A DNA stretch of 64,000 nucleotides. Source: Eubacteriaceae bacterium. Lineage in GTDB: Bacteria; Bacillota; Clostridia; Peptostreptococcales; Anaerovoracaceae. Each line of letters starts with the position of its first letter. Position 1 is the first letter of the stretch. Under the pieces are notes generated by a model. The model saw only the letters and a program-made list of their open reading frames with translations, did no database searches and had not been told where the DNA came from. The translations under genes and the position numbers were made by a program. Positions 13,471-64,000 of the stretch are shown in pieces. The DNA is taken from contig CABIWW010000008.1 in the NCBI GenBank assembly GCA_902362435.1, positions 72,516-136,515 of the forward strand, given 5' to 3'.

Positions 13471-13482
13471 AGGAGGCTTGGA

Positions 13483-48117: not shown

Positions 48118-48394
48118 TGTAAATCCTCCGGTAAATGTTTTCTATTATGATTTTACAATAGTATCGGCGATTTTCAAAGGAAAAATAATATGGTGCGGGA
48201 TAGCCGGAGGCGTGTATAATATATCTGTCTGCCGTGACTTTCATGCAAAGGGCTGCAGATGCTTATGTAAAGAGTTGCAGCTGTGTGCATCACGCACACC
48301 TGCGTTTTGCAGCAGACCTCAGGTCTCTACGCAGCGTTGATTAACAGACATGATCTGATCTGCTATCATATGCAGTGAAAGGAGCATGGTAATT

Positions 48395-48532
48395 ATGGAT
48401 CAGTATGTTACAGGAGAAATAATAAGGAAACTGCGTGAAGAGAAAAAAATGACGCAGGCAGAGCTGGCGGAGAAGCTGAGCGTCAGCGACAAAACAGTAT
48501 CAAAATGGGAAAACGGAGTTTCCCATAGTTAA
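48395..48532 (+). pseudogene. 5' part of XRE-desulfoferrodoxin regulator, cut by mobile element
   Basis: ATG 48395 follows AAAGGAG. The 40 intact codons encode a full XRE helix-turn-helix (IIRKLREEKKMTQAELAEKL, then SVSDKTVSKWENG). After GG at 48515-48516 the frame leaves the gene and meets TAA at 48530-48532. The continuation is at 62768, where the frame resumes with R-G-Y-P-D. Joined at the GG, the protein would be about 195 residues. Confidence 0.92.
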
Positions 48533-48591
48533 AGATACCACACCAAATATGATGAACCCACGCTTATACACTACCAGCTATAATAAACCGC

Positions 48592-48628
48592 AAGGACAGC
48601 AATTTGATGATACTGCTGTCCTTTCTTT
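48592..48628 (+). terminator. Terminator at the left end of the element
   Basis: AAGGACAGCA/TGCTGTCCTT (48592-48623) plus TTTCTTTT. It shields the cargo from transcription entering from the disrupted gene. Confidence 0.85.
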
Positions 48629-48681
48629 TATAAAATTGCAGTACACATAAAAAAGCTGTAAAATGATAAATATATTTGTCC

Positions 48682-48715
48682 TTGTAACAATTCTCGGACA
48701 TTTGCCTGTTATACT
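48682..48715 (+). promoter_or_regulatory. Two-component promoter with response-regulator box, copy 1
   Basis: TTGTAACAATTC (48682-48693), one base, CGGACATTT (48695-48703), six bases and TATACT (48710-48715). The same layout, base for base in spacing, stands before the ABC transporter. The boxes occupy the -35 region, as expected for sites bound by an OmpR-type activator. Confidence 0.75.
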
Positions 48716-48743
48716 ATCTGCAAAAAGCAAAGGAAGTGAGAAT

Positions 48744-49436
48744 ATGGAGCAGATTTTAATTGTCGAGGACGACAGTTTTTTGAATAAGATGTTGGCCTAT
48801 AACCTGACCGCAGACGGCTACGGCGTGACTTCTGCCCTAAATGCCAGAACCGCAGCCGAAGCCATCCGCCAGCGGGAATTTAATTTAGTGCTGCTGGACA
48901 TCAACCTGCCGGACGGGAACGGTTTTGAACTGTGCAAGCTGATAAAGCCCCAGCACCCGGATACCATCGTGATTTTCCTGACCGCCAACGATCAGGAGAG
49001 CGACCAGATACGGGGCTATGAGGTGGGCGCGGTGGATTACATCACAAAGCCCTTTGTGATCGGGGCCTTGCAGCGGAAAATCAAAGCCATGTTCGCCATG
49101 CTGGAACACCACAAACCGGCCAAGGACATTTACGACGACGGGCGGCTGTTTCTGGACTTCTCGGAACAGACGGCTTCCTTAAATGGCAAGCCCCTGACCC
49201 TATCCCCGATGGAGTACAAAATGCTGAACCTGTTCCGCAAAAATCCCCGGCAAGTGCTGACCCGTGGGCAGCTTTTGGAAAAGCTGTGGGATATAGACGA
49301 AAGGTTTGTAGACGAACACACCCTGACAACTTCTATCAGCCGGATTCGCAGCAAGATTGAATCCGACGGCGGCGCGCCCTACATCAAGACCGTTTACGGC
49401 ATGGGCTATCAATGGACGGGAGGCGAGGCAAAATGA
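48744..49436 (+). CDS. OmpR-family response regulator
   Basis: A 230-residue protein; ATG 48744 follows GGAAGTGAG. Receiver domain with acidic D9-D10, phosphorylation site D52 (LVLLDINLPDG) and Lys in YITKPF, then a winged-helix domain with RGQLLEKLWD and LTTSISRIRSKI. It partners the kinase whose ATG overlaps its stop, and is predicted to activate its own promoter and that of the ABC transporter. GC-rich codon use unlike the host chromosome. A VanR/BceR-like role in sensing envelope-acting antimicrobials is likely but inferred. Confidence 0.93.
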   Translation: MEQILIVEDDSFLNKMLAYNLTADGYGVTSALNARTAAEAIRQREFNLVLLDINLPDGNGFELCKLIKPQHPDTIVIFLTANDQESDQIRGYEVGAVDYITKPFVIGALQRKIKAMFAMLEHHKPAKDIYDDGRLFLDFSEQTASLNGKPLTLSPMEYKMLNLFRKNPRQVLTRGQLLEKLWDIDERFVDEHTLTTSISRIRSKIESDGGAPYIKTVYGMGYQWTGGEAK

Positions 49437-50464
49437 AATTTCAAAACCTCTCGGTAAAGCGGCTGTTTGGCCGGGTGGCAATAGGGTTTGCCCTCTCCAT
49501 GTCCGGGATCACCATAGCCCTTTTTCTTGTGACAAAACAGACGGCGGTGCTGCTGACGGGCGGGGCGCTGCTGTTGTGCGCCCTTGTAGGGATTTTTGTA
49601 CTGACGCAGGCGTTTGGAAAACGGTTATCACAGTTTACCGCTGACCTGTGCCAGACCTTAGACCACATGATTGCCGGAAATGAAGCGCCCCAGCGGCCAG
49701 AGGACAGCGAAACCCAGCTTGCCAGAATCGGACACCGGCTGGCAAGGCTTTACCAGATCATGCAGGAGAACCGCCGCCGGGTGGACGAGGAACGGCAGGA
49801 GTTACAGACCCTTGTATCGGATATTTCCCATCAGGTGAAAACGCCGGTAAGCAATCTGAAAATGGCGACGGACACCCTGCTGGAAAAGCCTATGGCCGAG
49901 GCAGAGCGCACCGACTTTATCCGGGGAATCCGCAGCCAGACGGATAAGCTGGACTTTCTCTTTCAGGCCCTTGTGAAAACCTCCCGTCTGGAAACAGGCG
50001 TGATCCAGTTGGACAAGAAACCGGGCCGCCTCTTTGATACCGTGGCACAGGCCATGAGTGGGATCGTGTATGCAGCGGAGAAAAAGGAAATCGCCGTGTC
50101 CGTGGACTGCCCGGAGGATTTGACCGTTTCCCATGACAGCAAGTGGACATCGGAAGCCCTCTTTAACCTGCTGGACAATGCGGTGAAGTACACCCCGGCA
50201 GGCGGGAAAATCGCTGTGTCTGTGGTGCTGTGGGAAATGTATGTGGAAATCAAAGTGACCGACACTGGCAAGGGCATTTCCGAAAGCAATCAGGCCGCTA
50301 TCTTCCAGCGCTTCTATCGTGAGGAAGAAGTACACGAACAGCAGGGTGTGGGCATTGGCCTGTATCTGGCCCGCGAGATCGTAACGCGGCAGGGTGGCTA
50401 TATCAAAGTGGTTTCGGAGCCGGGCAAGGGTTCGGAATTTTCCATTATGCTGCCTACAAAATGA
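49433..50464 (+). CDS. Sensor histidine kinase
   Basis: A 343-residue protein with two membrane helices (about 13-34 and 41-60) and almost no extracellular loop, then a HisKA domain with phosphoacceptor H133 (DISHQVKTPVSNLKM) and HATPase_c boxes (N box LLDNAVKYTPAGG, GKGISESN, GVGIGLYL). The tiny sensor loop is typical of intramembrane-sensing kinases that detect drugs through a partner ABC transporter, as in Bce-type modules; the transporter genes follow. ATGA overlap with the regulator gene. Confidence 0.92.
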   Translation: MKFQNLSVKRLFGRVAIGFALSMSGITIALFLVTKQTAVLLTGGALLLCALVGIFVLTQAFGKRLSQFTADLCQTLDHMIAGNEAPQRPEDSETQLARIGHRLARLYQIMQENRRRVDEERQELQTLVSDISHQVKTPVSNLKMATDTLLEKPMAEAERTDFIRGIRSQTDKLDFLFQALVKTSRLETGVIQLDKKPGRLFDTVAQAMSGIVYAAEKKEIAVSVDCPEDLTVSHDSKWTSEALFNLLDNAVKYTPAGGKIAVSVVLWEMYVEIKVTDTGKGISESNQAAIFQRFYREEEVHEQQGVGIGLYLAREIVTRQGGYIKVVSEPGKGSEFSIMLPTK

Positions 50465-50490
50465 AAGTAAACAAGCGAGGTGTTTCTATT

Positions 50491-50910
50491 ATGAATGAAC
50501 GAGAAAAAATAATCCGACTGTGGTTTGATATGTGGCTTTATCAGAAAGATATGGGCATTGATGATATTTTTGCGGAAGATGTACTCTATACAGAAAGTTG
50601 GTGTCCCCAGTATAGCAATCGTAAAACAGTAAAACATTGGTTTCAGGAGTGGAATACCCGTGGAAAGGTGGTAGTTTGGGAAATCAAGCAATTTTTCCAT
50701 AAAGAAAATCAAACGATTGTAGAGTGGTATTTCAAAAATGGAATGAACAATGGGGATATAGAGGAATTTGACGGTATTTCTTTGATTGAATGGACAGAGG
50801 ACAATAAAATAAAATCATTAAAAGAGTTTGGGTGTAACCGTAATACCTACAATCCTTATCAAGAAAGCGATACTCCTCAATTTAGAAATCAAAAGGCGAA
50901 TTGGTTTTAG
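50491..50910 (+). CDS. SnoaL/NTF2-like small protein
   Basis: A 139-residue protein; ATG 50491 follows GCGAGGTG. It reads as a cone-shaped NTF2-like fold (EKIIRLWFDMWLYQKDMGID, then FAEDVLYTESWCPQY and IVEWYFKNGMNNGDIEEFDG). Such folds serve as enzymes or ligand-binding proteins; the function here is unknown. It lies between kinase and ABC transporter, and is much more AT-rich than both, so it was added to the module separately. Confidence 0.6.
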   Translation: MNEREKIIRLWFDMWLYQKDMGIDDIFAEDVLYTESWCPQYSNRKTVKHWFQEWNTRGKVVVWEIKQFFHKENQTIVEWYFKNGMNNGDIEEFDGISLIEWTEDNKIKSLKEFGCNRNTYNPYQESDTPQFRNQKANWF

Positions 50911-50968
50911 AACAGATCATGAGCTACGGCGGACGGCCATTTCCGGCTGCCCGCCGTAAATTTTTTTG

Positions 50969-51057
50969 AAATGTCCGAGCGTTGTAACATTTCACCCCGA
51001 TTTTCAATGAAATTTTTGGGCCGCTGTAACATTTCGCGGACATTTGGGTTTTACAAT
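50969..51057 (+). promoter_or_regulatory. ABC transporter promoter with response-regulator boxes, copy 2
   Basis: AAATGTCCG (50969-50977), TTGTAACATTTC (50982-50993), then CTGTAACATTTC (51024-51035), one base, CGGACATTT (51037-51045), six bases and TACAAT (51052-51057). The last part repeats the spacing of the promoter at 48682-48715 exactly; the first part repeats at 54371. Confidence 0.75.
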
Positions 51058-51099
51058 ACCCTTATCAGCAGGCAGAAAGCCTTGGAAGGAGTTTTGAGT

Positions 51100-51765
51100 A
51101 TGAGTATTTTACAGACTATCGACCTGAAAAAGTATTACGGCACAAAGCCGAATATCACCCGCGCCCTTGACGGCGTGAACTTCTCCGTAAATGACGGTGA
51201 GTTTGTGGCCGTTGTGGGAACCTCCGGAAGCGGCAAGTCCACCCTGCTTCACATGATGGGCGGGCTGGACACTCCCACCAGCGGAACCGTGATTGTCCGG
51301 GACAAAGAGCTGTCGAAAATGAACGACGAACAGCTCACCATCTTCCGCCGCCGCAACATCGGCTTTATCTTCCAGAACTATAACCTTGTTCCGATCCTGA
51401 ATGTGTATGAGAACATCGTCCTGCCGGTGGAGCTGGACGGGGACACGGTGGATCAGAAGTTTTTGGACGAGATCGTTCATCTGCTGGGGCTGGAAGATAA
51501 ACTGAAAAACATGCCGAACAATCTTTCCGGCGGACAGCAGCAGCGTGTGGCTATCGCCCGCGCCTTGATTACCAAACCGGCTATTGTGCTGGCCGACGAG
51601 CCGACCGGCAACCTTGACAGCAAGACCAGCGCCGAGGTGCTGGGGCTTATCAAGCGCACCAGTGCAGAGTTCCGGCAAACTGTTGTGATGATTACGCACA
51701 ATGACGACATTGCCCGCCTTGCAGATCGGATTGTCCGCATTGAGGACGGCAGGATTGTGGAATAA
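51100..51765 (+). CDS. ABC transporter ATP-binding protein (MacB/BceA type)
   Basis: A 221-residue ATPase; ATG 51100 follows GGAAGGAG. Walker A GTSGSGKST (40-48), Q-loop FIFQNYNLVP, signature LSGGQQQRVAIARAL, Walker B IVLADEPTGNLDS. The family pairs with FtsX-like permeases to remove or sense antimicrobial peptides. It ends 14 bases before the permease. GC-rich, like the two-component genes. Confidence 0.95.
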   Translation: MSILQTIDLKKYYGTKPNITRALDGVNFSVNDGEFVAVVGTSGSGKSTLLHMMGGLDTPTSGTVIVRDKELSKMNDEQLTIFRRRNIGFIFQNYNLVPILNVYENIVLPVELDGDTVDQKFLDEIVHLLGLEDKLKNMPNNLSGGQQQRVAIARALITKPAIVLADEPTGNLDSKTSAEVLGLIKRTSAEFRQTVVMITHNDDIARLADRIVRIEDGRIVE

Positions 51766-51779
51766 GGAGGTGGCAAGCT

Positions 51780-54272
51780 ATGACATGGCCTTTTGAAAAT
51801 GATACCAGTGACATTGAAAAGAAGCTGGCAAAGCGCAGTTTGCATCGTGAACGGCAGCGTAATTTATTTGCAATCATTGCTCTTGTGCTAACTGCATTTA
51901 TGATAACTGCGACATTCAGTATTGGTTTTAGTTACTTTGAAACCTACCAAATGCAACAAATTCGGTTAATGGGAACTACCGCTGATGTCGGAATCACAAA
52001 TGTAACAGAAAATCAGTTGGTTGAAATTTCAAAATCAAACCTTGTCCTTGACGTAGGTATACAGCAGCGTTTAGGCAGTGTTGATACAGAGCAACTGCAA
52101 AATGCGAGATTAGGTATAGTTTGGATAGATGATACCGAGTGGGGAACCCACCGTCTGCCTACTATATCAAGTGTTGTAGGAAATTACCCATCAAGTAAAA
52201 ACGAAATTATGCTACCTACATGGGTGCTTGAACAGATGGGCATTTCTGATCCGCAAATAGGGATGGAGATTGTGTTGTCGTACCAAATTGGCGATAGCTA
52301 TAATTATGTCTCAGACACCTTTTTGCTGTCGGGCTACTATACGGACTACATTCCAATGCGCACAAATAATCGTGGTTATGTTTATGTTTCATCCGCTTTT
52401 AAGGATAGCTTAAATGTATCACTGGATAATAGTGTTACGGCAATGATCCGTTTTCAAGGCAATGATAATGCTGACAAAAACTGTGAAAGATTGCGGCGTG
52501 AGATTGACTTTACAGAAGGGCAAACATTTGAAATTGTACCATTAGAACAGGCAAATGGTGGAACTATTATTTTAGCTGTAATAATTTTAGCAGTTTTTAT
52601 ATCCTTTAGCGGCTATCTGCTGATTTATAATATTCTTTATGTCTCTGTCGTAAAAGATGTGCAATTCTATGGCCGTCTTAAAACGATTGGAATGACCCAA
52701 AGGCAGATAAAGAGAATTATCTATAAGCAGGCAATCAGAATCTCTTGTATTGGTATTCCGATTGGTCTGTTACTTGGTGCGGTTGTTTCCTTTGGCATTG
52801 TTCCTTACTTCCTGAATATGATGTATTCAACAAATTCTGATGTGGGAACAAAAGTATCTTTTTCGCCGTTTATTTTCATAGGAGCGGCCATATTTACGTT
52901 CATTACCGTTATGATTGCAAGCATGAAGCCCGCCAAAATTGCCGGAAATGTTTCACCAATAGCAGCACTCCAATATACAGCAGCCAGCACAAAGAGCAGC
53001 GCCAGAAATTGTAGCAAAATGAAGTTGTCCAGAATGGCATGGAACAATGTCTTTCGTAATGCTAAGAGTACAACCCTTGTTTTTGCATCGCTTTTTTTCG
53101 GCCTTTCCTTGTTCCTTGTCGTCACAGGGCTATTACATGGTTTAAGCCCGGAGAATTATGTGAGCCAATGGGGAGTAAGCGATTTTGCACTCACATATAG
53201 TATCCACGAAAGAGAAGATTTAATTTCCAGCGAAATGGTTTCAGAGATTGGTCAGCTTGACGGCATTGAGAATTTGAGGTTGACCTATGCACCTTATCCT
53301 CAAGTAGCAGCAGATGTTGTATATGACGATGCTGTATTTCACGAGTTTCTTGCGTCATTAGACGGAGTAAACGGCATTGATTTTTCTGATCCGGCAAAAT
53401 TAGAAAATTATCAGCAAAACTTTTTTAGCGGGGTTTTTGGAATTGACAGTGCATATTTGGAAGAAATCAATAAAACCTTAAACTTGCCTATTGACACGTC
53501 TGCCTTTGAACAAGGAAAGGTTGTGCTGCTGTCCAAAACAGTAGAAGGCCTTATTCAGCCAGGGCAGGAAATAACAATCCAGACGCAGAACGGACAGCAT
53601 TCCTTTATTGTAGCGAACGGTTATTTGAATGAAGGGTTTCGAGCAGGAGGAGGCAATGAGAGAGGGACGGCTCCTGATTTGTATATTAGTCAAACAGCTT
53701 TGAAAGAACTCTTTCCGCAATATAGAGTGTTCCGCGTGGCCTTTGATACGGATGGTCAACATGACGAAAGTATACTGCAAGAATTAAAGCAAATCACCGC
53801 ATCACAAGCTAACATTGATATTATATCCCGATATGAACGGCGAGAAGAAATGCAGGAATATCTCATTACAGCAAAGGTTTTAGGAACAGGGTTGTCCGTG
53901 ATCCTGCTGCTTGTTGGTGTCATGAACTTTGTCAATACAATGGTTGTCAATGTAAATACTCGGCGCTATGAATTAGCTGTTCTTGAAAGCATTGGAATGA
54001 CAAAGCGACAAATCAAACGAATGCTATTTATGGAAGGTTTCTATTATTGGGGCGTTTCCCTTTCCCTTGCAGTCACCATTGGAACAGCAATCTTCATCTT
54101 GCTATATATGATTTTTAGTAAAGTGGCCTATTATGCTGTTTTCTCCTATCCATTTATCCCACTGGTGCTGGTGTCTGGACTGGTGTTGCTAATCTGCCTT
54201 ATTGTGCCTATATGGGTCTACAAAACTGACGTTAACCTTCCAGTTGTGGAGCGATTGCGGTTGACAGAGTGA
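51780..54272 (+). CDS. FtsX-type ABC transporter permease
   Basis: An 830-residue membrane protein with an N-terminal helix (ALVLTAFMITATFSIGFSYF), an extracellular domain, three helices with an FtsX motif (RLKTIGMTQRQIKRIIYKQA), a second helix and extracellular domain, and a final FtsX triplet (VLESIGMTKRQIKRMLFMEG). It works with the preceding ATPase. The layout (two FtsX repeats, two outside domains) resembles drug- or bacteriocin-resistance permeases. The gene is strikingly AT-rich beside its GC-rich ATPase partner, which suggests permease replacement or mosaic assembly. Confidence 0.92.
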   Translation: MTWPFENDTSDIEKKLAKRSLHRERQRNLFAIIALVLTAFMITATFSIGFSYFETYQMQQIRLMGTTADVGITNVTENQLVEISKSNLVLDVGIQQRLGSVDTEQLQNARLGIVWIDDTEWGTHRLPTISSVVGNYPSSKNEIMLPTWVLEQMGISDPQIGMEIVLSYQIGDSYNYVSDTFLLSGYYTDYIPMRTNNRGYVYVSSAFKDSLNVSLDNSVTAMIRFQGNDNADKNCERLRREIDFTEGQTFEIVPLEQANGGTIILAVIILAVFISFSGYLLIYNILYVSVVKDVQFYGRLKTIGMTQRQIKRIIYKQAIRISCIGIPIGLLLGAVVSFGIVPYFLNMMYSTNSDVGTKVSFSPFIFIGAAIFTFITVMIASMKPAKIAGNVSPIAALQYTAASTKSSARNCSKMKLSRMAWNNVFRNAKSTTLVFASLFFGLSLFLVVTGLLHGLSPENYVSQWGVSDFALTYSIHEREDLISSEMVSEIGQLDGIENLRLTYAPYPQVAADVVYDDAVFHEFLASLDGVNGIDFSDPAKLENYQQNFFSGVFGIDSAYLEEINKTLNLPIDTSAFEQGKVVLLSKTVEGLIQPGQEITIQTQNGQHSFIVANGYLNEGFRAGGGNERGTAPDLYISQTALKELFPQYRVFRVAFDTDGQHDESILQELKQITASQANIDIISRYERREEMQEYLITAKVLGTGLSVILLLVGVMNFVNTMVVNVNTRRYELAVLESIGMTKRQIKRMLFMEGFYYWGVSLSLAVTIGTAIFILLYMIFSKVAYYAVFSYPFIPLVLVSGLVLLICLIVPIWVYKTDVNLPVVERLRLTE

Positions 54273-54312
54273 GTTTAATCAAATAGCAAAACATCCTTAG
54301 ATCAATCATATC

Positions 54313-54349
54313 GAAGCGGAGCAGATTTTAGCTGCTCCGCTTCTTTAGT
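54313..54349 (+). terminator. Terminator after the ABC transporter
   Basis: GAAGCGGAGCAG/CTGCTCCGCTTC (54313-54343), a 12-base perfect stem followed by a T-rich stretch. Confidence 0.85.
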
Positions 54350-54370
54350 ATTTTTCAAAAAATTCTTTTG

Positions 54371-54436
54371 AAATGTCCGAGCTTTGTAACAATTCAGCCT
54401 GTTTTTCTGTCGAAATCAAAGGCACCTCGGACATTT
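54371..54436 (+). repeat. Response-regulator box, copy 3 without a promoter
   Basis: AAATGTCCG (54371-54379), TTGTAACAATTC (54384-54395) and CGGACATTT (54428-54436), matching the ABC promoter in order and mostly in sequence. No plus-strand gene follows; the next gene is convergent. Probably the relic of a deleted gene regulated by the same two-component system. Confidence 0.65.
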
Positions 54437-54528
54437 ATAGTTCTTCCAAAAGTTTGATGATAATATTACCATTCATGGAAGAAGCAATCTGTTATTGCAA
54501 TAATGCGAAATTGACGATAGAAAGTTTT

Positions 54529-55569
54529 TCATATCTCGGTCAGCTCAACAATTACATTACTCTGCTGATACAGCCAGTCCGTAAATTCTTTCGGGCTGGC
54601 CGTTCCTGTTTTTACAGCCTTTTTTCTCTGTAAGGCTTCTTTCTTAAAGTCGGAAAAGGAAGCCTGTATTTTTTCCAGACGGTCAGCCGGAAAGCCTGCG
54701 GTATTTTTTACCCGGTTTATTTTGTTGCGCCAGTTCTGGCATTCATTTTTATAAAGCAGGTCATAGTTATTTTCTCTTGACCTCTCGTCAAATTCCCGCT
54801 TGTTTTGAAGCGCCTGTGCTTTTCGGCACTTGTCGCTGCACAGCTCATACCGCTGGCTCTTTGCCAGAAAATATTTTCCACAGACCTTGCACCGCCGGAA
54901 GCAAAGCCCCCAGTCATTCAGCCTGTTCAGATAATAGGTAATCAACGGGTAGAGGGACGCATAGGCAGACACACATTCTTCTGTGCGCCGGTTGTCCGGG
55001 AACCAGAGGTCAAGCCGGGTATCTTCTGACGGTGCGCCTTTGAAATAAAGGCTGCCAGCTTGAAATTGTTTCGGTTTTCCTGTCTCCCTGTCAAAGCTCA
55101 TGGTTTCGTTTTGGAATACCCCGGTCAGTCTGCTCATTTTATCCATGAAGCGGTCACAGGCAGCGTTACGGTCACGGGGTTCTCTGGCAAGCAGATAGCT
55201 GTTCCAGATACGGAACGCCACATACATTTTCAGAGGGTCGTTGCTAAGATATTTCTCCCAAAGAAATTCGCTTGCCGCCTGCTCCAGCTCCGGCTGTTTC
55301 CATCGGTTGGAGTGGAGAGCTTGCCGCAGCGGAGAAAGCCCGTATAAGTTCCAGTCTCTGTCCGTGTCACGCTCAAAGTTTATCAAAAAAGTTCCCAGTG
55401 GGCGTGTCATATCACAAAGCACCTCTGCGTTTTGGCTCCCGTTCAGACGGAAGCGGATCTGCTGTTCTTCCCCAATCAAAATCCGCTCTTTCATTTTCTT
55501 CCTGTCCAGCGTCAGGACAAACAAAATCCTCTCAAAACATGGCTCATGCCGTATAAACTGATTCTCCAT
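54529..55569 (-). CDS. DUF6076-like protein with C-terminal zinc finger
   Basis: A 346-residue protein; ATG 55569 follows GGGGATAGG, while the in-frame ATG at 55629 lacks a site. Residues about 240-280 hold a zinc-finger CKVCGKYFLAKSQRYELCSDKC, which resembles the CGNR/DUF6076 zinc ribbons of mobile-element proteins; the C-terminus is basic and helical. A DNA- or RNA-binding role is likely. It is the only minus-strand gene of the element. Confidence 0.65.
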   Translation of the reverse strand: MENQFIRHEPCFERILFVLTLDRKKMKERILIGEEQQIRFRLNGSQNAEVLCDMTRPLGTFLINFERDTDRDWNLYGLSPLRQALHSNRWKQPELEQAASEFLWEKYLSNDPLKMYVAFRIWNSYLLAREPRDRNAACDRFMDKMSRLTGVFQNETMSFDRETGKPKQFQAGSLYFKGAPSEDTRLDLWFPDNRRTEECVSAYASLYPLITYYLNRLNDWGLCFRRCKVCGKYFLAKSQRYELCSDKCRKAQALQNKREFDERSRENNYDLLYKNECQNWRNKINRVKNTAGFPADRLEKIQASFSDFKKEALQRKKAVKTGTASPKEFTDWLYQQSNVIVELTEI

Positions 55570-55737
55570 CCCTATCCCCTGCCTTTGTTTATGGTAATTA
55601 TATAATTCAGTTATATCCGTTACACTCATGGTATCGCAGAATCATTGTTTTGTCAAGGATAGTACGCTATGATGATTGCGGTTGGTAATTTCGTACCGCA
55701 CAGTACCTTGACAAGTGAATGACCGTCCAAAAGGGAT

Positions 55738-55845
55738 ATGACCGGCAGGAGAAGTGACGCATTCGGCGCACCAATGCAGGGAAACACCGCAGGAATGGGG
55801 CAGGAAAACGGCTTTTGGGGAGAACGGCAACAGGAAGCATTTTAA
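55738..55845 (+). CDS. Short ORF, perhaps the tail of a lost gene
   Basis: A 35-residue frame from ATG 55738 (behind AAAAGGGAT) with the Gly/Gln-rich end MGQENGFWGERQQEAF. The composition looks like a real protein end, and elements of this kind often carry a larger gene here, so it may be a C-terminal remnant. No function. Confidence 0.3.
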   Translation: MTGRRSDAFGAPMQGNTAGMGQENGFWGERQQEAF

Positions 55846-55871
55846 CCTATTTGATTTATGGGAGGAACAGA

Positions 55872-56096
55872 ATGAACGATAAAAAGAGATTGAACAGCTA
55901 CGAGGATTTACCGCTGGTTCTGGATGTGGCGGACATTCAGCGGATTATGGGAATTTCAAGAGCGAGCGCCTATGAGCTGGTACACACACCCGGCTTTCCA
56001 GCGTTCCGCAGGGGCAGACTTATCAAGGTCAGCAAAATTGCTTTCTTTGAATGGATGGCAAAAGGCTCCGAAACCGTACCGGGAAGCGACAAATAA
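55872..56096 (+). CDS. Excisionase-like helix-turn-helix protein
   Basis: A 74-residue protein; ATG 55872 follows GGGAGGAAC. LVLDVADIQRIMGISRASAY and a wing (FRRGRLIKVSKIAFFEWM) form a MerR/excisionase-type helix-turn-helix, common in Firmicute mobilizable elements. It may be the directionality factor for the serine recombinase or a regulator of transfer genes. Confidence 0.75.
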   Translation: MNDKKRLNSYEDLPLVLDVADIQRIMGISRASAYELVHTPGFPAFRRGRLIKVSKIAFFEWMAKGSETVPGSDK

Positions 56097-56243
56097 GCGT
56101 GAGGTATCATTCCCTGACTTGCAATACTGCCGCACTTTCCAAAGGGGCATACAGAGGGAAAAAAACTTAAAAATGATACCGAGACGCTACATCAAAACAG
56201 CCTATCTGCGTACATCAGATAGAAACGGAGAAAGGAGCCGGTT

Positions 56244-56447
56244 ATGGCAAGAATGAGTAACAAGCGGCGGTTGGAATGGTCTTTCTTCTTAAATGACCGC
56301 AGCCGTATCACTTACAACGAACTGTGCCGGAAATGCCAGCACGAATGTAAACAGAGCTTCCGGGCGGTTGTGGTTGACTGCCCGAAGTATCTTTCCAAGC
56401 GTTCCAAGAAAAAGGACAAGACTGCCGGAAACGGCAAAATCCCTTAG
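56244..56447 (+). CDS. Small cysteine-containing element protein
   Basis: A 67-residue basic protein (ARMSNKRRLEWSFFLNDRSR, then YNELCRKCQHECKQSFRAVV). CxxC-x3-C suggests a small metal-binding site. Similar proteins regularly precede the relaxase operon in these elements; function unknown. The site GGAGCCGG precedes it. It ends just before oriT. Confidence 0.6.
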   Translation: MARMSNKRRLEWSFFLNDRSRITYNELCRKCQHECKQSFRAVVVDCPKYLSKRSKKKDKTAGNGKIP

Positions 56448-56450
56448 GAA

Positions 56451-56496
56451 CTAAGGGCGCACTTCTATACATAGTCTAAAGACCATGTATCGTGCG
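56451..56496 (-). other. Origin of transfer (oriT), RSF1010/pIP501-like nick site
   Basis: On the minus strand, GAAGTGCGCCCTTAG (56451-56465) matches the MOBQ nick consensus TAAGTGCGCCCTTA of RSF1010 and pIP501-type plasmids. On the 5' side is an 11-base inverted repeat ATACATGGTCT/AGACTATGTAT (56467-56490, one mismatch, two-base loop), the standard relaxase-binding hairpin. The nick is expected near 56453-56455. The relaxase operon begins 240 bases downstream. The rest of 56497-56733 holds further hairpins and no gene. Confidence 0.85.
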
Positions 56497-56733
56497 TCCT
56501 GCGGAGCTTACCTCTGCCGCTGATAAAATCAGCAATCCGAGGTCTGCGTTCGCTTCGCTCCGACAAGGTGGCTACACCCCCTTGCGCCGCTAAAGCGGCT
56601 ATCCCCTGTGTACCCGCCGCAAAGAGAAATCCGCTCTGCGGTTTTCCCTTTTCATCGGGTTTTATAGAAGCACTGACACACGGACTGTCTGCGGATGGTC
56701 TTTCTTTATCTTATCAGCAAAGGATGTGAGAAC

Positions 56734-57051
56734 ATGGAAAAATCTTTGGAACAGTTGAAGCAGGAATATGAAAAAACCACTGTCCTGCTGGAACAGGAAA
56801 AACGGAAAATGCAGCGTTTGAAAAACCGGCAGGCGTATCTGGAAAGCGGTTCCCGGAAACAGAGGACGCACCGGCTGATTACCCGTGGGGCAGCTATTGA
56901 GAGCATTGCACCACAGACAAAGGAGCTATCCGAAGCGGAATTTTATTCCCTCATGGAAAGCATTTTGAATCTGCCGCAGGCGGAGCATTTCATCCGGTCT
57001 GCCACAGAGAACCACGCCCGTATTTCCGGGCAGGAGAAAGGCGGTGACTAA
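56734..57051 (+). CDS. DUF3847-type accessory mobilisation protein
   Basis: A 105-residue protein; ATG 56734 follows AGGATGTGAG. The N-terminal half is a coiled coil (EKSLEQLKQEYEKTTVLLEQ) and the middle has RTHRLITRGAAIESI, the DUF3847 pattern. It stands immediately before the relaxase, ending two bases before that gene, and is probably a relaxosome accessory protein binding oriT. Confidence 0.75.
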   Translation: MEKSLEQLKQEYEKTTVLLEQEKRKMQRLKNRQAYLESGSRKQRTHRLITRGAAIESIAPQTKELSEAEFYSLMESILNLPQAEHFIRSATENHARISGQEKGGD

Positions 57052-57053
57052 GG

Positions 57054-58526
57054 ATAGCACTTTATCATTTTTCAATCGCACAGATCAAGCGCAGCGCCGG
57101 TCAGAGCGCCATTGCCAGCGCAGCCTATCGAGCCGGGGAGCGTCTTTACAGCAGCTACTATGGAGAAGTCAGCGACTACACCAAAAAGGGCGGCGTGATC
57201 GCTTCGGAAATCATGCTGCCGCCCCATGCGCCGGAAATATATCTTGACCGGGCGACCCTCTGGAATGCTGTGGAGAACTGCGAGAAACATCCAAAAGCAC
57301 AGCTTGCCTATTCCTTTGATATTGCCATGCAGAATGAATTGACGCTGGAAGAAAACATGGAGCTGGCGAGGAAGTTCGTACAGGAGCAGTTTGTGACAAA
57401 AGGCATGATTGCCGACCTTGCTTTTCACAGCCCGGAGAAAGAGGACGGCGGCATCCCTAACCCGCATTTTCATGTGATGACAACCATGCGCCCTTTGAAC
57501 CCGGATGGCACATGGGGACAAAAACAGCGTCGGGAATATCTTCTTGATGAAGATGGAAACCGAATCCGGGATAAAAACGGCGATTATATGTTTAACGCTG
57601 TCCATACAACAGACTGGCATGAGCCGGAAACGCTGGAACACTGGCGGGAGCAGTGGGCGGCTGCCGTTAATACAAAATTTGAGGAAAAAGGGCTGGATGT
57701 GCGTATCGACCACCGTTCCTATGTGCGGCAGGGGCTTGACCTGATACCTACTGTCCACGAGGGAGCTAATGTCCGGCAGATGGAAGCAAAGGGCATCCGC
57801 ACCGAGAAAGGGGAACTGAACCGCTGGATTAAAGCCACCAACCGGCTCATGCAGGATGTGAGGAAGAAGATCAAAGCCCTGTTTGTCTGGATGGCAGAGG
57901 TAAAAGAAGAACTTTCCAAACCGCAGACACCGAGCCTTGCCGACCTGTTGATCGCTTATTACAACCAGCGCAACGCAGGGGCATGGAGCAATAAAGCCAG
58001 AACCGGAAACTTAAAGCAGTTTGCCGAAGCCGTCAATTATCTGACGGAAAACAAGCTGCTCACATTAGAGGATTTGCAGGAGCGTCTTTCCTCTGTCAAC
58101 GAAGAATTTGAAGCGTTAAGCGACTCCATGAAAAAGAAATCTGCCCGGATAAAGGAATTGCAGGAATTGATACGGGAGGGCGAGAATTACCAGCGGCTAA
58201 AACCTGTTCATACGGAATTGAACAATATCAAGTTTAAGAAACAGAGGGAGAAATTTGAAACATCCCACGATGCGGAGTTACGGCTGTTTTATGCCGCCCG
58301 CCGTATTTTGAAAGAAAAACTGGACGGAAAACCCATTGCCCTGAAAGCATGGAAACAGGAATACGCACAGTTAAAAACAGAGTATGCCGAACTGTCTCCG
58401 CAGCACAAGCCACTCCGGGAGGAAGTCATACGGCTACGGCAGGTGCAGAACGCCGTAGATACCGCACTGCGCCGGAGGGAGCAGCCACAGGCAGTACAGA
58501 GAAAGAAACATGAGATGGAGCTATGA
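57054..58526 (+). CDS. MobA/MobL (MOBQ) relaxase with apparent ATA start
   Basis: A 490-residue protein if begun at ATA 57054. In this frame the family N-terminus is intact: x-A-L-Y-H-F-S-I, QSAIASAAYRAGERLY with the catalytic Tyr at position 25, as in RSF1010 MobA, then SDYTKKGGV. The HUH motif NPHFHVM is near residues 138-144. The first ATG/GTG in frame (57195) would drop the catalytic Tyr. An in-frame stop at 57045-57047 excludes any upstream start, and the DUF3847 stop is two bases before. It nicks oriT at 56451-56465. The C-terminal half is coiled coil. Confidence 0.85.
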   Translation: MALYHFSIAQIKRSAGQSAIASAAYRAGERLYSSYYGEVSDYTKKGGVIASEIMLPPHAPEIYLDRATLWNAVENCEKHPKAQLAYSFDIAMQNELTLEENMELARKFVQEQFVTKGMIADLAFHSPEKEDGGIPNPHFHVMTTMRPLNPDGTWGQKQRREYLLDEDGNRIRDKNGDYMFNAVHTTDWHEPETLEHWREQWAAAVNTKFEEKGLDVRIDHRSYVRQGLDLIPTVHEGANVRQMEAKGIRTEKGELNRWIKATNRLMQDVRKKIKALFVWMAEVKEELSKPQTPSLADLLIAYYNQRNAGAWSNKARTGNLKQFAEAVNYLTENKLLTLEDLQERLSSVNEEFEALSDSMKKKSARIKELQELIREGENYQRLKPVHTELNNIKFKKQREKFETSHDAELRLFYAARRILKEKLDGKPIALKAWKQEYAQLKTEYAELSPQHKPLREEVIRLRQVQNAVDTALRRREQPQAVQRKKHEMEL

Positions 58527-58573
58527 TATAACCGGCAGCTTTACCGCTACCAGTATTTTTATGGAGGGAGCAT

Positions 58574-59314
58574 TTGAATGTATTTGAAGCGGTGAAACAG
58601 TCTGTTACCACCCGGCAGGCTGCTTCATTCTATGGAATCCGGGTGGGGAGAAACGGCATGGTCTGCTGTCCATTCCACAATGACCGCACGCCCAGCATGA
58701 AAGTGGACAGCCGCTTTTACTGCTTCGGCTGCGGGGCTTCCGGGGATGTGATCGACTTTGCCGCTTTGCTGCATGGATTGGGGAAACGGGAAGCTGCGGT
58801 CAGGCTTGCGGAGGACTTCGGCGTTTCCTATGAGAAATCCGGCAATGCGCCGCCAGATAGGAAGCGTCACAACAGGTCACAGCCCCGACAAAAATCAGCG
58901 GAGCAGAGATTTCAGGAAACGGAACGGTATTGTTTCCGGGTGCTATGCGATTATCTGCGCCTGCTGGAGCATTGGAAAACAGCACACGCCCCACAGCCGC
59001 AGGATGCCATCTGGCATCCTCTTTTTGTGGAAGCGTTGCAGAGGATAAGCTACACAGAATACCTTTTGGATATTTTGTTATACGGAGAAATAGAAGAAAA
59101 AGCGGCATTGATCGCCGCACAGGGAAAGGAGGTGTTGCGGCTTGAACAGCGAATTTCAGAGCTTGCCGCCGGAAACGCAGGAAGCGGTCAAAAGGACGAT
59201 GGACACAATGGAACCGGCGCAGACACCGGAAGAAATCCGGGAGACATTAGAGGGGACGCAGAAAGGCGGCGTGAAGAACAGCATCCGAAACTGCCTGACG
59301 GTGTTCCAGCGTGA
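58574..59314 (+). CDS. DNA primase-type CHC2 zinc-finger protein
   Basis: A 246-residue protein from TTG 58574 behind TATGGAGGGAG. The CHC2 zinc finger is complete (C32, H35 in CCPFH, then C50 and C53 in FYCFGCG), followed by SGDVIDFAALLHG. The TOPRIM catalytic domain is missing, so it recognises DNA for the element's replication rather than being a complete primase. It overlaps the VirE-like gene by 173 bases in another frame. Confidence 0.85.
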   Translation: MNVFEAVKQSVTTRQAASFYGIRVGRNGMVCCPFHNDRTPSMKVDSRFYCFGCGASGDVIDFAALLHGLGKREAAVRLAEDFGVSYEKSGNAPPDRKRHNRSQPRQKSAEQRFQETERYCFRVLCDYLRLLEHWKTAHAPQPQDAIWHPLFVEALQRISYTEYLLDILLYGEIEEKAALIAAQGKEVLRLEQRISELAAGNAGSGQKDDGHNGTGADTGRNPGDIRGDAERRREEQHPKLPDGVPA

Positions 59315-60539
59315 CCCTCTGTTTCGCGGGGCGCTGCGCCTGAACCTTTTGACGGAGCAGATTGACATTGTGAAGCCGCTGGGCTGGGAGCGCACCAGTA
59401 CCACGCTGACCGACATGGACATGAACTACCTGCTTTTGTATCTGGAAGAAAATTACGGGCTTACCAGCGAGAAAAAGGTGCAGAGCGCCATCAAGATTGT
59501 TGCCAATGAAAACCGCTACCATCCAGTCAGGGATTACCTGAACAGCCTGCAATGGGACGGCACAGAGCGCATCCGTTACGCCCTGCATCACTTTCTGGGA
59601 GCCGATACGGACGAATACACCTATGAAGCCTTGAAACTGTTCCTGATGGGAGCCATCCGGCGGGTATTCAGACCGGGGAGCAAGTTTGAGGTCATGCTCT
59701 GTCTGGTTGGTGGTCAGGGAGCCGGGAAATCTACCTTTTTCCGGCTGCTGGCAGGCAGGGACGAATGGTTTTCAGACGATTTGAAAAAGCTGGACGATGA
59801 AAATGTGTACCGCAAGCTGCAAGGGCATTGGATTATCGAGATGTCGGAGATGATTGCCACAGCCAACGCCAAGAGTATTGAGGAAATCAAGTCATTCTTA
59901 AGCCGCCAGAAAGAAACCTACAAAGTGCCGTATGAGACACATCCGGCAGACCGGCTGCGGCAATGTGTATTTGGAGGGACGACCAACCGGCAGGACTTTT
60001 TGCCCCGTGACCGCACCGGCAACCGGCGCTTTCTCCCCGTGACGGTGTACCCGGAACGGGCGGAGGTTCACATACTGGACGATGAAGCGGCGGCGAGGGC
60101 GTATATCGAACAGATGTGGGCGGAAGCCATGACGGTTTATCGCAGTGGGAAGTATAAGCTGTCATTCAGCATGGAAATGAACCGATACCTGAACGCCCAC
60201 CAGCAGGACTTTATGCAGGAAGACACACAGGCCGGCATGATCTACGCCTATTTGGAGGACTACACCGGCGACAGGGTATGTTCCAAGCAGCTTTATGAGG
60301 AAGCGCTGGGGAACTTAAATTCCCCGGCAGACTGGGAGACACGGGCAATCTGCGAGATTATGAATACCGGCATTGCGGGCGGCATCATACAGGGCTGGGT
60401 AGCCTACAAAAGCCCGAAGCGGTATAAGAAATACGGTTCTCAAAAAGGCTGGGAGCGTGTCAACCAAGCTCCGCCGGAGGGGGACGGTTTTCAGGAAATC
60501 ACGGAAGAAGAAGCCCGGCAAATGGAACTTCCATTCTGA
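59142..60539 (+). CDS. VirE/VapE-family P-loop protein (replication helicase-like)
   Basis: A 465-residue protein from TTG 59142. Walker A GGQGAGKSTFFRLL is at about 189-202; downstream is WIIEMSEM (Walker B-like) and the FGGTTNRQDFLPRDRTGNRRF motif typical of the virulence-associated E/phage primase-helicase family. With the CHC2 protein it probably lets the excised circle or transferred strand replicate. A cluster of GGTTGAC repeats starts inside its 3' end. Confidence 0.88.
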   Translation: MNSEFQSLPPETQEAVKRTMDTMEPAQTPEEIRETLEGTQKGGVKNSIRNCLTVFQRDPLFRGALRLNLLTEQIDIVKPLGWERTSTTLTDMDMNYLLLYLEENYGLTSEKKVQSAIKIVANENRYHPVRDYLNSLQWDGTERIRYALHHFLGADTDEYTYEALKLFLMGAIRRVFRPGSKFEVMLCLVGGQGAGKSTFFRLLAGRDEWFSDDLKKLDDENVYRKLQGHWIIEMSEMIATANAKSIEEIKSFLSRQKETYKVPYETHPADRLRQCVFGGTTNRQDFLPRDRTGNRRFLPVTVYPERAEVHILDDEAAARAYIEQMWAEAMTVYRSGKYKLSFSMEMNRYLNAHQQDFMQEDTQAGMIYAYLEDYTGDRVCSKQLYEEALGNLNSPADWETRAICEIMNTGIAGGIIQGWVAYKSPKRYKKYGSQKGWERVNQAPPEGDGFQEITEEEARQMELPF

Positions 60540-60733
60540 AAAGCCACCGGTTGACAGTTTGGTTGACGCTTTGGTTGACAGCCGGTTGACGGGGAAAAGC
60601 CTGATATTTGGGGCATTTCTCTCCTTTGTCAACCATGTCAACCAAGAAATCAAAGAAAAAGTAAAAAGTAATAATAGAGCGCCTATGGATTGTTTTCAAA
60701 GTCTTTTCTGCCGGTTGACACGGTTTGGTTGAC
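60459..60733. repeat. Nine copies of GGTTGAC, possible replication origin
   Basis: Direct copies at 60549, 60561, 60573, 60584, 60713 and 60727; inverse copies (GTCAACC) at 60459, 60628 and 60637. The four at 60549-60590 are spaced 12, 12 and 11 bases apart, near one DNA turn. This pattern is iteron-like. It begins in the VirE-like gene and fills the gap before tnpW. Confidence 0.75.
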
Positions 60734-60809
60734 ACGGAGACAGTCTGCGGCTGTACACCTGTCTGACATTCCCTTGTCGGGCATATTTCATTTATGGAGG
60801 TAACTGCCT

Positions 60810-60995
60810 ATGGCAAAAAGCAAAAACGAGAGCAATAACAAAAACAGCGGCACCCTGCTTACCGAAAAAGACGGCACCCAGTATTTTGTCATGGGGAAAG
60901 TCCGTATCAAGGTATCGGAGCATTTCGCACAGGATGGGAAGCCGCTTGACAGCCTGCTGGAAGATGTGATCCAGCACGCTGCCGCCGCTTCCTGA
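60810..60995 (+). CDS. tnpW: TnpW-like transposon protein
   Basis: A 61-residue protein (GTLLTEKDGTQYFVMGKVRI, then SLLEDVIQHAA) of the TnpW family found in Tn4451-type elements just before the recombinase gene. The role is unknown; it is thought to be dispensable or regulatory. The site TGGAGGTAA precedes it. Confidence 0.8.
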   Translation: MAKSKNESNNKNSGTLLTEKDGTQYFVMGKVRIKVSEHFAQDGKPLDSLLEDVIQHAAAAS

Positions 60996-61024
60996 AAAAA
61001 TACGGAATAACGACTGTCAATCAG

Positions 61025-61082
61025 CCCACGCTTATGATATACTTGTACCAGCGAGTATTGTATAAGCGTGGGTTGTTTCTTT
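61025..61082 (+). terminator. Inverted repeat with T-tract before the recombinase
   Basis: CCCACGCTTAT (61025-61035) and ATAAGCGTGGG (61062-61072) are a perfect 11-base inverted repeat, followed by TTGTTTCTTTT. It may end tnpW, act as an attenuator, or bind the recombinase; a third copy of the 11-mer lies at 48557 near the left end. Confidence 0.7.
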
Positions 61083-61102
61083 TAGAAGGAGGATTTTTAA
61101 CC

Positions 61103-62725
61103 GTGAAACAACCATACAATACAACGATTTATAACACTGCACTATATTTGAGATTGAGCCGTGACGATGAATTACAGGGGGAAAGCGGCAGTATCCAGAC
61201 CCAGCGCATGATGCTTAGACAGTATGCCGCAGAGCATGGGCTGACCGTTGTAGACGAGTACATTGACGACGGATGGAGTGGGACAAATTTCGAGCGTCCA
61301 AGTTTCCAAAGGATGATTGATGACATCGAAGACGGGAAAATCAACTGCGTTGTCACAAAGGACTTATCCCGTCTGGGAAGAAACTATATCCTGACCGGTC
61401 AGTACACGGAAATCTATTTCCCCAGCAAGGGAGTACGCTACATTGCCATCAATGACAATGTGGACACCATCAACGGAGAAAGCGAGCTTGCACCGTTCTT
61501 AAACATCCTGAATGAAATGCACGCCCGACAGACCAGCAAAAAGGTCAAGGCTGCCATGCACACAAGATTTGCCAATGGCGCACACTATGGAGCCTATGCA
61601 CCGCTGGGCTATGTAAAAGACCCGGACAAAAAAGGTCATCTTCTGATCGACCCGGAAACACGCTGGATTGTAGAGAAGATTTTTGACCTTGCTGTACACG
61701 GGCGTGGAGCCGCCAGCATTACACGGATTCTGGTGGAGGAAAAAGTACCTACCCCCGGCTGGCTGAACTATGAAAGATACGGGACTTTCGCCAATATCTA
61801 CGCCGGTGCGCCCGCAGAAAAAGCCTATGCGTGGACGATAGCACAGGTCAAGAGCATTTTGAAAGAGGAAACCTACATCGGTCACAGCATTCACAACAAG
61901 CAGAGCAACATTTCATTCAAGAACAAGAAAAAGGTGCGGAAGCCGCAGGAAGAATGGTATCGTGTGGAAAATACCCACGAAGCCATCATTTCTGAAGAAG
62001 TGTTCCAAAAAGTTCAGGAGCTGATTGCAAGCAGACGCAGGAAACGCAGAAACGGTACGACACAGATTTTCGCAGGATTGATAAAATGTGCAGACTGCGG
62101 ATGGTCTTTAGCCTATGGGGAAAACAAGCAGAATAAGAACCCATACGGGTACTACCATTGCAGCAAGAACGGGCAGGGATTACGCCAGTGTTCCATGCAC
62201 TATATCCGCTATGATGTACTGTATGCCTATGTGCTTGCAAGACTGCAATACTGGTCTATGCTGGCACAGAAAGACGAGGACAAGCTGCTGAAACGCCTGC
62301 TCAATGCCAGCGACAGGGAAAGAAACTCTGCGAAGAAAAAGCAGGCTGCGGAGCTGAAAAAGGCAGAGAAGCGTAAAGCCGAGGTTGACGGGCTGTTTGC
62401 TAAAATGTATGAGGACTGGTCTGCCGGACGCATAACCGAGTATAACTTCAATATGCTGTCCGAGAAGTACCAGAACGAGCAAAAGGAGCTTGAAACAAAA
62501 ATAAGACAGCTTCACGAAACGATGGAAGCCGCCGTACAGACCGCAGCGGATGCTGAAAAGTGGATTGCCCTGATGAAACAGTATGTCAACCCTGTGGAGC
62601 TGACCGCCGAACTTCTGAACACTCTAATTGAAAAAATAACCGTCCACGAAGCTGTCAAGGGCGAGGACGGAAGCCGTGAGCAGGAAGTAGAAATCTACTA
62701 CCGCTTCATCGGCAAAATCGACTGA
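61103..62725 (+). CDS. Large serine recombinase (TnpX family)
   Basis: A 540-residue protein from GTG 61103 behind GAAGGAGG. The resolvase domain has nucleophile S19 (LYLRLSRDDE), TKDLSRLGRNY and the following GGSTVDTIN-type loop; the recombinase domain includes GAYAPLGYVKDP, then a zinc ribbon CADCGWSLAYG...YYHCSKN, and a coiled-coil motif near 410-470. It excises and integrates the element at GG (or similar) dinucleotides. It is 44 bases from the right end. The putative circular form would bring left-end DNA upstream of the other cargo. Confidence 0.95.
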   Translation: MKQPYNTTIYNTALYLRLSRDDELQGESGSIQTQRMMLRQYAAEHGLTVVDEYIDDGWSGTNFERPSFQRMIDDIEDGKINCVVTKDLSRLGRNYILTGQYTEIYFPSKGVRYIAINDNVDTINGESELAPFLNILNEMHARQTSKKVKAAMHTRFANGAHYGAYAPLGYVKDPDKKGHLLIDPETRWIVEKIFDLAVHGRGAASITRILVEEKVPTPGWLNYERYGTFANIYAGAPAEKAYAWTIAQVKSILKEETYIGHSIHNKQSNISFKNKKKVRKPQEEWYRVENTHEAIISEEVFQKVQELIASRRRKRRNGTTQIFAGLIKCADCGWSLAYGENKQNKNPYGYYHCSKNGQGLRQCSMHYIRYDVLYAYVLARLQYWSMLAQKDEDKLLKRLLNASDRERNSAKKKQAAELKKAEKRKAEVDGLFAKMYEDWSAGRITEYNFNMLSEKYQNEQKELETKIRQLHETMEAAVQTAADAEKWIALMKQYVNPVELTAELLNTLIEKITVHEAVKGEDGSREQEVEIYYRFIGKID

Positions 62726-62767
62726 CCTTTCTTTTTTACCCAACAATATCTTTAATTAAGGGAGACG

Positions 62768-63235
62768 GGCAGAGGATATCCGGACATAACCCTGATAGAA
62801 CCGATAGCGCAGGCGCTGGGGATTTCCATGATAGAACTGCTGTCAGGCAGCAATATCGTGAATGAAAACCGCAATGCCAATATGCTGAGGACGAAATGGT
62901 ATGTATGTCCGGTCTGCGGCAATGTGGTGAATGCCACGGGCGAAGCTGTGATAAGCTGCTGCGGTATCACGCTGCCGGCATTCGATATGGTCGAGGCGGA
63001 TGCGGATCATCCGGTGAGCATAGAGCGGGTGGAGGACGAGTATTACGTGACGATAGATCATGAGATGACCAAGACGCACTATATATCGTTCATCGCTGCG
63101 CTGTCCGGCCAGGAGAACCATATCGTGAAGCTGTATCCGGAAGGGCCGGCAGAGGCGAGATTCAAGACGCGTCTGGTAAGGAAGATAATTTTTTACTGCA
63201 ATCATCACGGCCTGTTCGAGGTCAGGGTAAAGTGA
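62768..63235 (+). pseudogene. 3' part of XRE-desulfoferrodoxin regulator
   Basis: Resumes at the second GG with R-G-Y-P-D and continues the helix-turn-helix tail (IEPIAQALGISMIELL). Then comes a desulforedoxin-like domain YVCPVCGNVV...ISCCG (four cysteines) and a superoxide-reductase domain whose five expected ligands are all present: His in ADHPVSI, DHEMTK, KTHYISF, and Cys plus His in YCNHHGLF. The original was a fusion of XRE and full desulfoferrodoxin. As separated here the 3' half could at most be made from ATG 62828, lacking the DNA-binding part. Confidence 0.9.
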
Positions 63236-63280
63236 CAGAAGCATGTATGCTTTTGGATAAATCAAAACGACAGAGATAAA

Positions 63281-63400
63281 AACGCAACGTGCGCCGCGAC
63301 GGCGTGCCAGAGCCGGTAGGTAGCCCGGCCGTCCTGCGGATCGCAAGGAAGAGGAGATCGCAGGGTAAGTAACCTGCCCCTCCGGGTTGTCCGTTCTTTG
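63281..63400 (+). promoter_or_regulatory. yjdF-type riboswitch
   Basis: A GC-rich structured leader with GTGCGCC-gcgac-GGCGTGC, the GCCGG-TAGGTAG-CCCGGC stem and GATCGCAGGGTAAGTAACCTGCCCC. The conserved GGTAGGTAGCC and GTAAGTAACC segments and the position right before yjdF match the yjdF RNA motif, known to respond to azaaromatic compounds. The fit is from memory of the motif, not from an alignment. Confidence 0.75.
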
Positions 63401-63429
63401 TCCATTTCGATCAGTGAGGAGGGATAGTT

Positions 63430-63866: not shown

Positions 63867-63900
63867 AAAAAGTCTGGCCTTGTAAAGGTGCAGGCTTTTT
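63867..63900 (+). terminator. yjdF terminator; second group II intron target
   Basis: AAAAAGTCTG...CCTT pairs with AAGG...CAGGCTTTTT. A group II intron begins seven bases after it. Confidence 0.75.
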
Positions 63901-63906
63901 CTGCGT

Positions 63907-64000
63907 GTGTGCCAGGCATGGCATAAGTCTTACGGGTGAAAGTCCCGTCACGGGTATTTACCGCCAAGTGTAGCGAACCACAAGCCGAAGACAACAATGT
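63907..64000 (+). mobile_element. Group II intron 5' end (cut by window end)
   Basis: GTGTGCCAGGCATGGC at 63907 obeys the GUGYG rule; TACGGGTGAAAGTCCCGTC and GCCAAGTGTAGCGAACCACAA are the typical domain I start. Its sequence differs from the intron at 43087, so it is another lineage. Only 94 bases are in view; no reverse transcriptase can be seen. Confidence 0.8.

Follow-up and report, generated by a model that had tools for sequence, protein, structure and literature searches.

A split HTH-Dx-SOR gene and a group of serine recombinases with an apparent preference for XRE genes

The 64,000-nucleotide stretch analyzed here (the window; Eubacteriaceae bacterium, contig CABIWW010000008.1) contains a gene whose two parts, both on the forward strand, are separated by a mobile element. 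The 5′ part (48395..48516, +) encodes an XRE helix-turn-helix (HTH) domain up to a W-E-N-G stretch (HTH_3, E 1.7e-12; intact relatives) and reads from ATG 48395 to K-W-E-N-G, followed by V-S-H-S-stop within the element. The 3′ part (62770..63235, +) supplies the end of the XRE domain, a four-cysteine desulforedoxin-like (Dx) site and a superoxide reductase (SOR) domain, and corresponds to an open frame (62771-63235) that starts R-G-Y-P-D. The two halves were read and searched separately. The right piece matches PF01880 (Desulfoferrodox) with an E-value of 7.5e-05 (23.6 bits, cut-off 22.2) and the PDB desulfoferrodoxin 1vzg with an E-value of 2e-08, and scores 43.5 bits against NCBIfam dfx_rbo, far under the cut-off of 146.9. 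An earlier note on this DNA had proposed that the pieces at 48395-48516 and 62770-63235 form a single frame; frame and profile matches bear this out to the base, and the proposed join coincides with the recombination core, a GG that stands at 48515-48516 and 62768-62769 in the register of other insertions. The five SOR iron ligands named in that note, four histidines and one cysteine, are all present, as are the four cysteines of the Dx site.

Between the halves lies the mobilizable element that had been suspected there, an integrative mobilizable element (IME) with a GG core at both ends (48517..62769, +; 14,253 bp counting one core copy), the ends being set by comparison with other insertions. 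From the sequence and these other insertions, the left end (48515..48537, +) consists of the GG core and the arm AGTTTCCCATAGTTAAAGATA, which adds a stop to the host frame, and the right end (62747..62769, +) of the arm TATCTTTAATTAAGGGAGACG and the GG core. The two arms flank GG, have the same length and are nearly inverted repeats of each other. A GGGA core, considered for a W-E-T-G site, was set aside because the GG register joins the frames of the L062 ends and of the pairs L087/L065, L072/L091, and L094/L076, each from a single contig (L numbers denote loci collected here), and because it makes both arms equally long. As for an IME, the element carries both an integrase and a relaxase: a large serine recombinase (61034..62725, +) with the complete domain set of the DUF4368 type, i.e., Resolvase, Recombinase, zinc ribbon and DUF4368 (PF00239, PF07508, PF13408, and PF14287, all above cut-off), and a MobA/MobL relaxase (57195..58526, +; PF03389, E 1.5e-72; NCBIfam MobQ 188.9 bits, cut-off 200).

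Scanning genome_contigs for the right piece recovered 42 loci (L001-L042). In 36 of these, which were aligned, a single open frame runs through the HTH, Dx and SOR parts, across the point at which the window gene is broken. The uninterrupted homologues that the earlier note had asked for therefore exist, open in one frame across the K-W-E-x-G / GYPDI stretch, full-length and with the redox domain kept, so that the proposed XRE-Dx-SOR fusion holds. Since these relatives cross the break in a single frame, it is practically certain that a genuine gene has been split in the window by a mobile element. The insertion parts the recognition-helix half from the remainder, and the regulator is for this reason very probably inactive. 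The alignment omits L011, L013, and L026, which run off contig ends, L041, which ends in the Dx part at a contig end, L039, an XRE and SOR frame without Dx, and L042, an XRE protein without Dx or SOR. In L039 (2135-2524), the XRE open frame is joined directly to the SOR end, as a variant or a decayed gene.

The XRE-Dx-SOR fusion has been in print since 2011, when SORGOdb named a class of 19 proteins "HTH-Dx-SOR" (PMC3116461). According to the passages on this class, its members share with the window gene an HTH placed N-terminal to the Dx-SOR module. The cysteine spacing quoted there for Dx is CXXCX15CC (PMC3116461), whereas the window gene and L002 have CX2CX13CC. The desulforedoxin-like site of the earlier note thus stands as regards its four cysteines but is two residues short of the published spacing, and the window gene is assigned to the class by its architecture, not as a canonical Dx. 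The N-terminal HTH is evident in both the window piece and L002, where the full domain matches at an E-value of 3.3e-15. An AlphaFold model of an intact relative (predicted local distance difference score, pLDDT, 89.7; predicted template modeling score, pTM, 0.72) finds desulfoferrodoxins as its best Foldseek matches (2ji2, E 2.3e-09), followed lower down by HTH proteins, among them ClgR and C.BclI. Desulfoferrodoxins (1DFX, 2JI1, 1VZG) share the fold (E 2e-09 to 4e-08), the core SOR ligands and the four-cysteine site; HTH-Dx-SOR proteins differ in adding the N-terminal HTH, in mostly lacking Lys48, and in their variable His118 and fourth cysteine. When an intact relative was used as a protein query, 8000 candidates were scored, all with E <= 0.001, and three of the best 120 of these bear source names like "XRE family transcriptional regulator/desulfoferrodoxin." No conserved gene neighborhood accompanies HTH-Dx-SOR genes, the widest neighbor cluster covering 5 of 40 loci.

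Conservation of the metal ligands is uneven across the 36 aligned relatives (positions numbered as in desulfoferrodoxin: Lys48, His49, His69, His75, Cys115, and His118). The first three Dx cysteines, His69, His75, and the axial Cys115 are unchanged in all 36; His49, within a loosely aligned stretch, is present in 32; His118 is replaced by aspartate in nine; and position 48 is lysine in three only. The Dx site has four cysteines in the window gene and in 27 relatives, and reads Cys-Cys-Cys-His in the other nine. Histidine stands in the fourth Dx position in eight of the nine Asp118 rows, and a repeated, coupled change from the fourth cysteine to histidine and from His118 to aspartate was rejected, as these eight rows form one clade (ultrafast bootstrap, UFBoot, 97). 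In this clade (L015, L020, L028, L031, and L033-L036) the metal sites of both domains are possibly altered. Three HTH-Dx genes (L065, L066, and L130), each split by the same recombinase group as the window gene, have four cysteines and have lost several SOR ligands. Together with the variable ligands, these genes make the pattern lean towards a regulatory role, and the division into invariant and variable positions fits an iron- or redox-responsive self-regulator. That HTH-Dx-SOR proteins sense redox state or iron, as the earlier note suggested for superoxide or iron, is about as likely as not.

The promoters of these genes carry a candidate operator. The 130 bp ahead of the start were compared for 33 genes, the window gene and those of 32 relatives; 31 of these relatives carry the repeat C[TC][AC]C-N4-[CG]GTAG[GA]T, which neither L008 nor the window matches. 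The consensus is TCTAC-N4-CGTAGGTtG with TAtnnT approximately 17 bp further, which places the repeat over the -35 region of the gene's own promoter. The exact sequence TCTACNNNNCGTAGGT occurs 26 times, in 26 of the 34 genomes holding HTH-Dx-SOR genes, and every copy sits 62-70 nt ahead of an HTH-Dx-SOR start. No exact copy lies away from such a gene in the 34 genomes; inexact copies, of which many would be expected by chance, were left outside this search. The window retains a copy (48326..48343, +; consensus TCTACNNNNCGTAGGTTG) that keeps its spacing to the ATG and has three substitutions in the right half, which may have weakened it; a 4-bp deletion was rejected as its description, the distance to the ATG being unchanged. 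The conserved operator supports DNA binding by HTH-Dx-SOR proteins. Since exact operators stand only before the gene itself and no neighborhood is shared, private autoregulation through the inverted repeat is likely.

The same observations bear on another possibility, that the intact protein is mainly a superoxide reductase which limits its own expression, with the HTH providing feedback control only. It would account for the retained SOR fold and core ligands, as well as for the single operator per genome, at the protein's own gene. Lys48 is important for superoxide reductase catalysis, however, and its rarity, the inconstant His49 and His118, and the three related HTH-Dx genes without several SOR ligands all speak against an enzyme first and foremost, leaving this alternative possible but rather doubtful.

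The choice of insertion site was examined through relatives of the recombinase, which were obtained by protein searches of viral contigs, of 391 genomes (one class) and of 392 genomes (one order), and by a DNA search of plasmids. Excluding the window, 35 recombinase loci are at least 58% identical (L053-L059, L062, L063, and L106-L131), and the right end is readable in 30 of them, all except L057, L058, L110, L119, and L131. Three more matches of the order search at this level are without a locus of their own; two have XRE right ends by way of other loci (L069 and L101), and G293:C82 is outside the count. In 25 of the 30 readable right ends, the sequence continues in frame as the remainder of an XRE gene (x-x-x-P-D/E after the split codon). 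An independent search with the arm pattern, the last bases of which belong to the arm and hence do not select for XRE genes, gave 39 matches in 22 of the 392 genomes, against three for the backward control. After a spurious match (L077) was dropped, 20 distinct readable left ends were available, the window included. All 20 have the GG core, and 16 code for the beginning of an XRE protein as far as W-E-x, each of them matching HTH_3 (16/16), although L072 has an upstream stop. From the XRE ends, 16 left and 33 right, comes the consensus aaTGGGA...GG-N10-CCgGAtat, which corresponds to the W-E, glycine and P-D codons. By comparison, TGGGAR plus 3 nt precedes 61 of the 65,236 GG sites in L001-L042, a figure inflated by the HTH-Dx-SOR genes through which these loci were fetched, and eight genomes have 27-77 HTH_3 matches each.

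In a quick tree of the recombinases (48 rows; L059, L111, L125, and L131 excluded as too short), the XRE-targeting rows fall into one clade of 32 (Shimodaira-Hasegawa-like approximate likelihood ratio, SH-aLRT, 99), comprising 23 XRE, 5 other and 4 unread rows. The 16 distant rows (at most 43% identical) lie outside it, and no such arm was found with them. The targets of the group, counted without the 50%-identity clustering of PMC10083194, are 16 different XRE starts and the other sites. These ends make it very likely that the group prefers the W-E-x-G sites of XRE genes, and the window insertion is, on this comparison, one case of its habit: as an XRE gene, HTH-Dx-SOR offers the K-W-E-x-G stretch at which elements of the group insert, and the same applies to at least three further HTH-Dx loci. 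Genome G379 (L070, L089, L095, and L096) has a pair of left and a pair of right XRE flanks that share their arms, and in G381:C38 (L099 and L100) the contig starts and stops at arms, each a hint of more than one copy or of mixed states.

Taken as a whole, and on sequence comparison with genomes of which many are drafts, the locus is best explained, with a probability of roughly 0.8, as a gene of a known class, an element with a preference for XRE sites, and an intact protein that regulates itself. The HTH-Dx-SOR gene has been interrupted by an IME whose DUF4368 recombinase, together with its nearer relatives, appears to favor sites built by the W-E-x-G...P-D codons of XRE regulators and, judging from the many insertions compared, to recombine at the GG with which the glycine codon begins. 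The intact proteins of relatives probably bind CTAC-N5-GTAG over the -35 region of their own gene, an operator recognized by its conservation, and would control mainly that gene (the direction of this control we infer), with the state of the Dx/SOR iron sites presumably setting DNA binding.

Several observations weigh against this explanation. The window has a degenerate operator copy, an exact match is absent in 8 of the 34 genomes, and a backward control string matches 16 times in the same genomes, so that the string alone is not rare. Five of the 30 right ends (L055, L063, L108, L113, and L123, the last with a target that is histidine-kinase-like by eye) and 4 of the 20 left ends (L063, L064, L074, and L098) are outside XRE genes; L063 gives both ends of one element, and L113/L098 both ends of another. 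At the core, 28 right ends have GG; the remaining two of the 30 (L054 and L122), which are XRE as well, have GA. The XRE calls at right ends are based on frame and motif, without a Pfam match; L126 keeps the motif briefly and then stops, and the arm of L129 was matched with four errors. Finally, no junction of an excised circle was found in viral_contigs or in the 26 genomes with arms or recombinase, although assemblies rarely retain such forms. With regard to L063, the related element (11300-16560), on a plasmid of Lactobacillus amylovorus, is inserted in a direct repeat that by eye resembles a CRISPR repeat.

The nine ends elsewhere, five right and four left, and the GG found in all left ends would also be expected of a recombinase that needs a GG-rich core only and for which XRE genes dominate as tolerated insertion sites. 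Insertions at one codon of one motif, not spread over XRE genes, and the DNA conserved on both sides of the core make this improbable.

The favored explanation, a mobile element with a preference for XRE sites, also bears on the earlier suggestion that the insertion acts as a switch restored on excision. Exact excision could in principle restore the gene, as both halves are without stops and a scarless outcome is expected from GG-to-GG recombination. For a domesticated element, however, with excision programmed for when the regulator is needed, it is unexpected that recombinases 97.6-100% identical to this one occupy different XRE genes elsewhere, both in other genomes and on a Subdoligranulum plasmid, that the cargo and relaxase resemble those of an ordinary mobile element, and that the circle junction was missing from the assemblies searched. 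A dedicated switch is thus highly improbable and this part of the earlier note is not upheld; with most ends of the group at the W-E-x-G glycine codon of XRE genes, the insertion is, as far as the compared sites indicate, a generic XRE event. Equally slight is the chance that translation from ATG 62828 still yields the right part as a separate Dx-SOR protein. The open frame there, of 135 amino acids, does contain Dx and SOR parts, but no clear ribosome-binding site was seen by eye before that ATG and the native promoter is on the far side of the element.

The cargo begins with a response regulator (48744..49436, +; PF00072, PF00486) and a sensor histidine kinase (49412..50464, +; PF00512, PF02518), followed by a SnoaL-like protein (50461..50910, +; PF12680), an ABC transporter ATPase (50971..51765, +; PF00005) and an FtsX-type permease (51780..54272, +; PF02687). 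Beyond the cargo are genes for a DUF6076 protein (54529..55629, -; PF19553), a primase-type zinc finger protein (58574..59314, +; PF01807) and a VapE-like replication protein (59142..60539, +; PF05272, E 2.5e-71); an HTH_17 protein was recognized by a profile match within 48517-62769. No conjugation machinery was found among the element proteins scanned, a scan that covered part of the open reading frames. The Subdoligranulum plasmid carries 65% of the element at 97.7% identity, within another XRE gene. In the passages of PMC5704250 on such elements, Tn4451-like IMEs likewise have one serine recombinase, a mobilization gene and very short direct repeats. Tn4451 is described there as having low specificity, unlike the XRE W-E-x-G preference proposed here, and most serine-recombinase IMEs are said to use one specific gene (PMC5704250).

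Elsewhere in the window, at 63266-63846, an Azaaromatic (yjdF) riboswitch (63.1 bits) lies directly ahead of a DUF2992/YjdF gene (63430-63846), and a group II intron (43172-44902; Rfam group-II-D1D4-3 and D1D4-1) contains a reverse transcriptase/maturase (RVT_1, GIIM). By eye, 63900-64000 resembles the 5′ start of a second group II intron, a likeness unconfirmed by the Rfam gathering score or by comparison with the first intron, and the open reading frame list suggests cytosine methyltransferase and McrB/McrC-like genes at 47-4022.

Two points look new: the promoter repeat of HTH-Dx-SOR genes and the choice of W-E-x-G sites by the recombinase group. Among the matches listed in a literature search, whose scope was titles and abstract starts (supplements and subscription journals not covered), neither an operator of HTH-Dx-SOR nor an XRE-targeting serine recombinase appeared. 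An operator is proposed here, whereas the passages of PMC3116461 on the class give neither operator nor function. Multi-targeting large serine recombinases with DUF4368 share with the present group their domain content and their many target genes (PMC10083194). Here, target choice appears to track the codons of one protein motif, unlike the account in the parts of PMC10083194 concerned, where the Pfam enrichment of targets excluded the DUF4368 clade; the words helix-turn-helix, HTH and Xre are absent from its main text (supplement not covered). The portions of PMC6814731 on other C. difficile elements do not mention XRE targeting.

It is somewhat probable that the clade has evolved to use the W-E-x-G...P-D codons as its attachment site, with its elements acting as targeted inactivators of a paralogous regulator family, and that HTH-Dx-SOR is a privately autoregulated iron or redox sensor caught in this way. 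If so, one genome would supply many regulator genes as landing places, and a "multi-targeting" recombinase could be both promiscuous and orderly, as it would read DNA that is kept constant by protein function. The landing positions of such elements, and the rewiring of regulators in Clostridia, would then become predictable. The candidate operator would turn the question of the HTH-Dx-SOR sensor into a gel-shift experiment, and the W-E-x-G stretch would provide a defined integration site.

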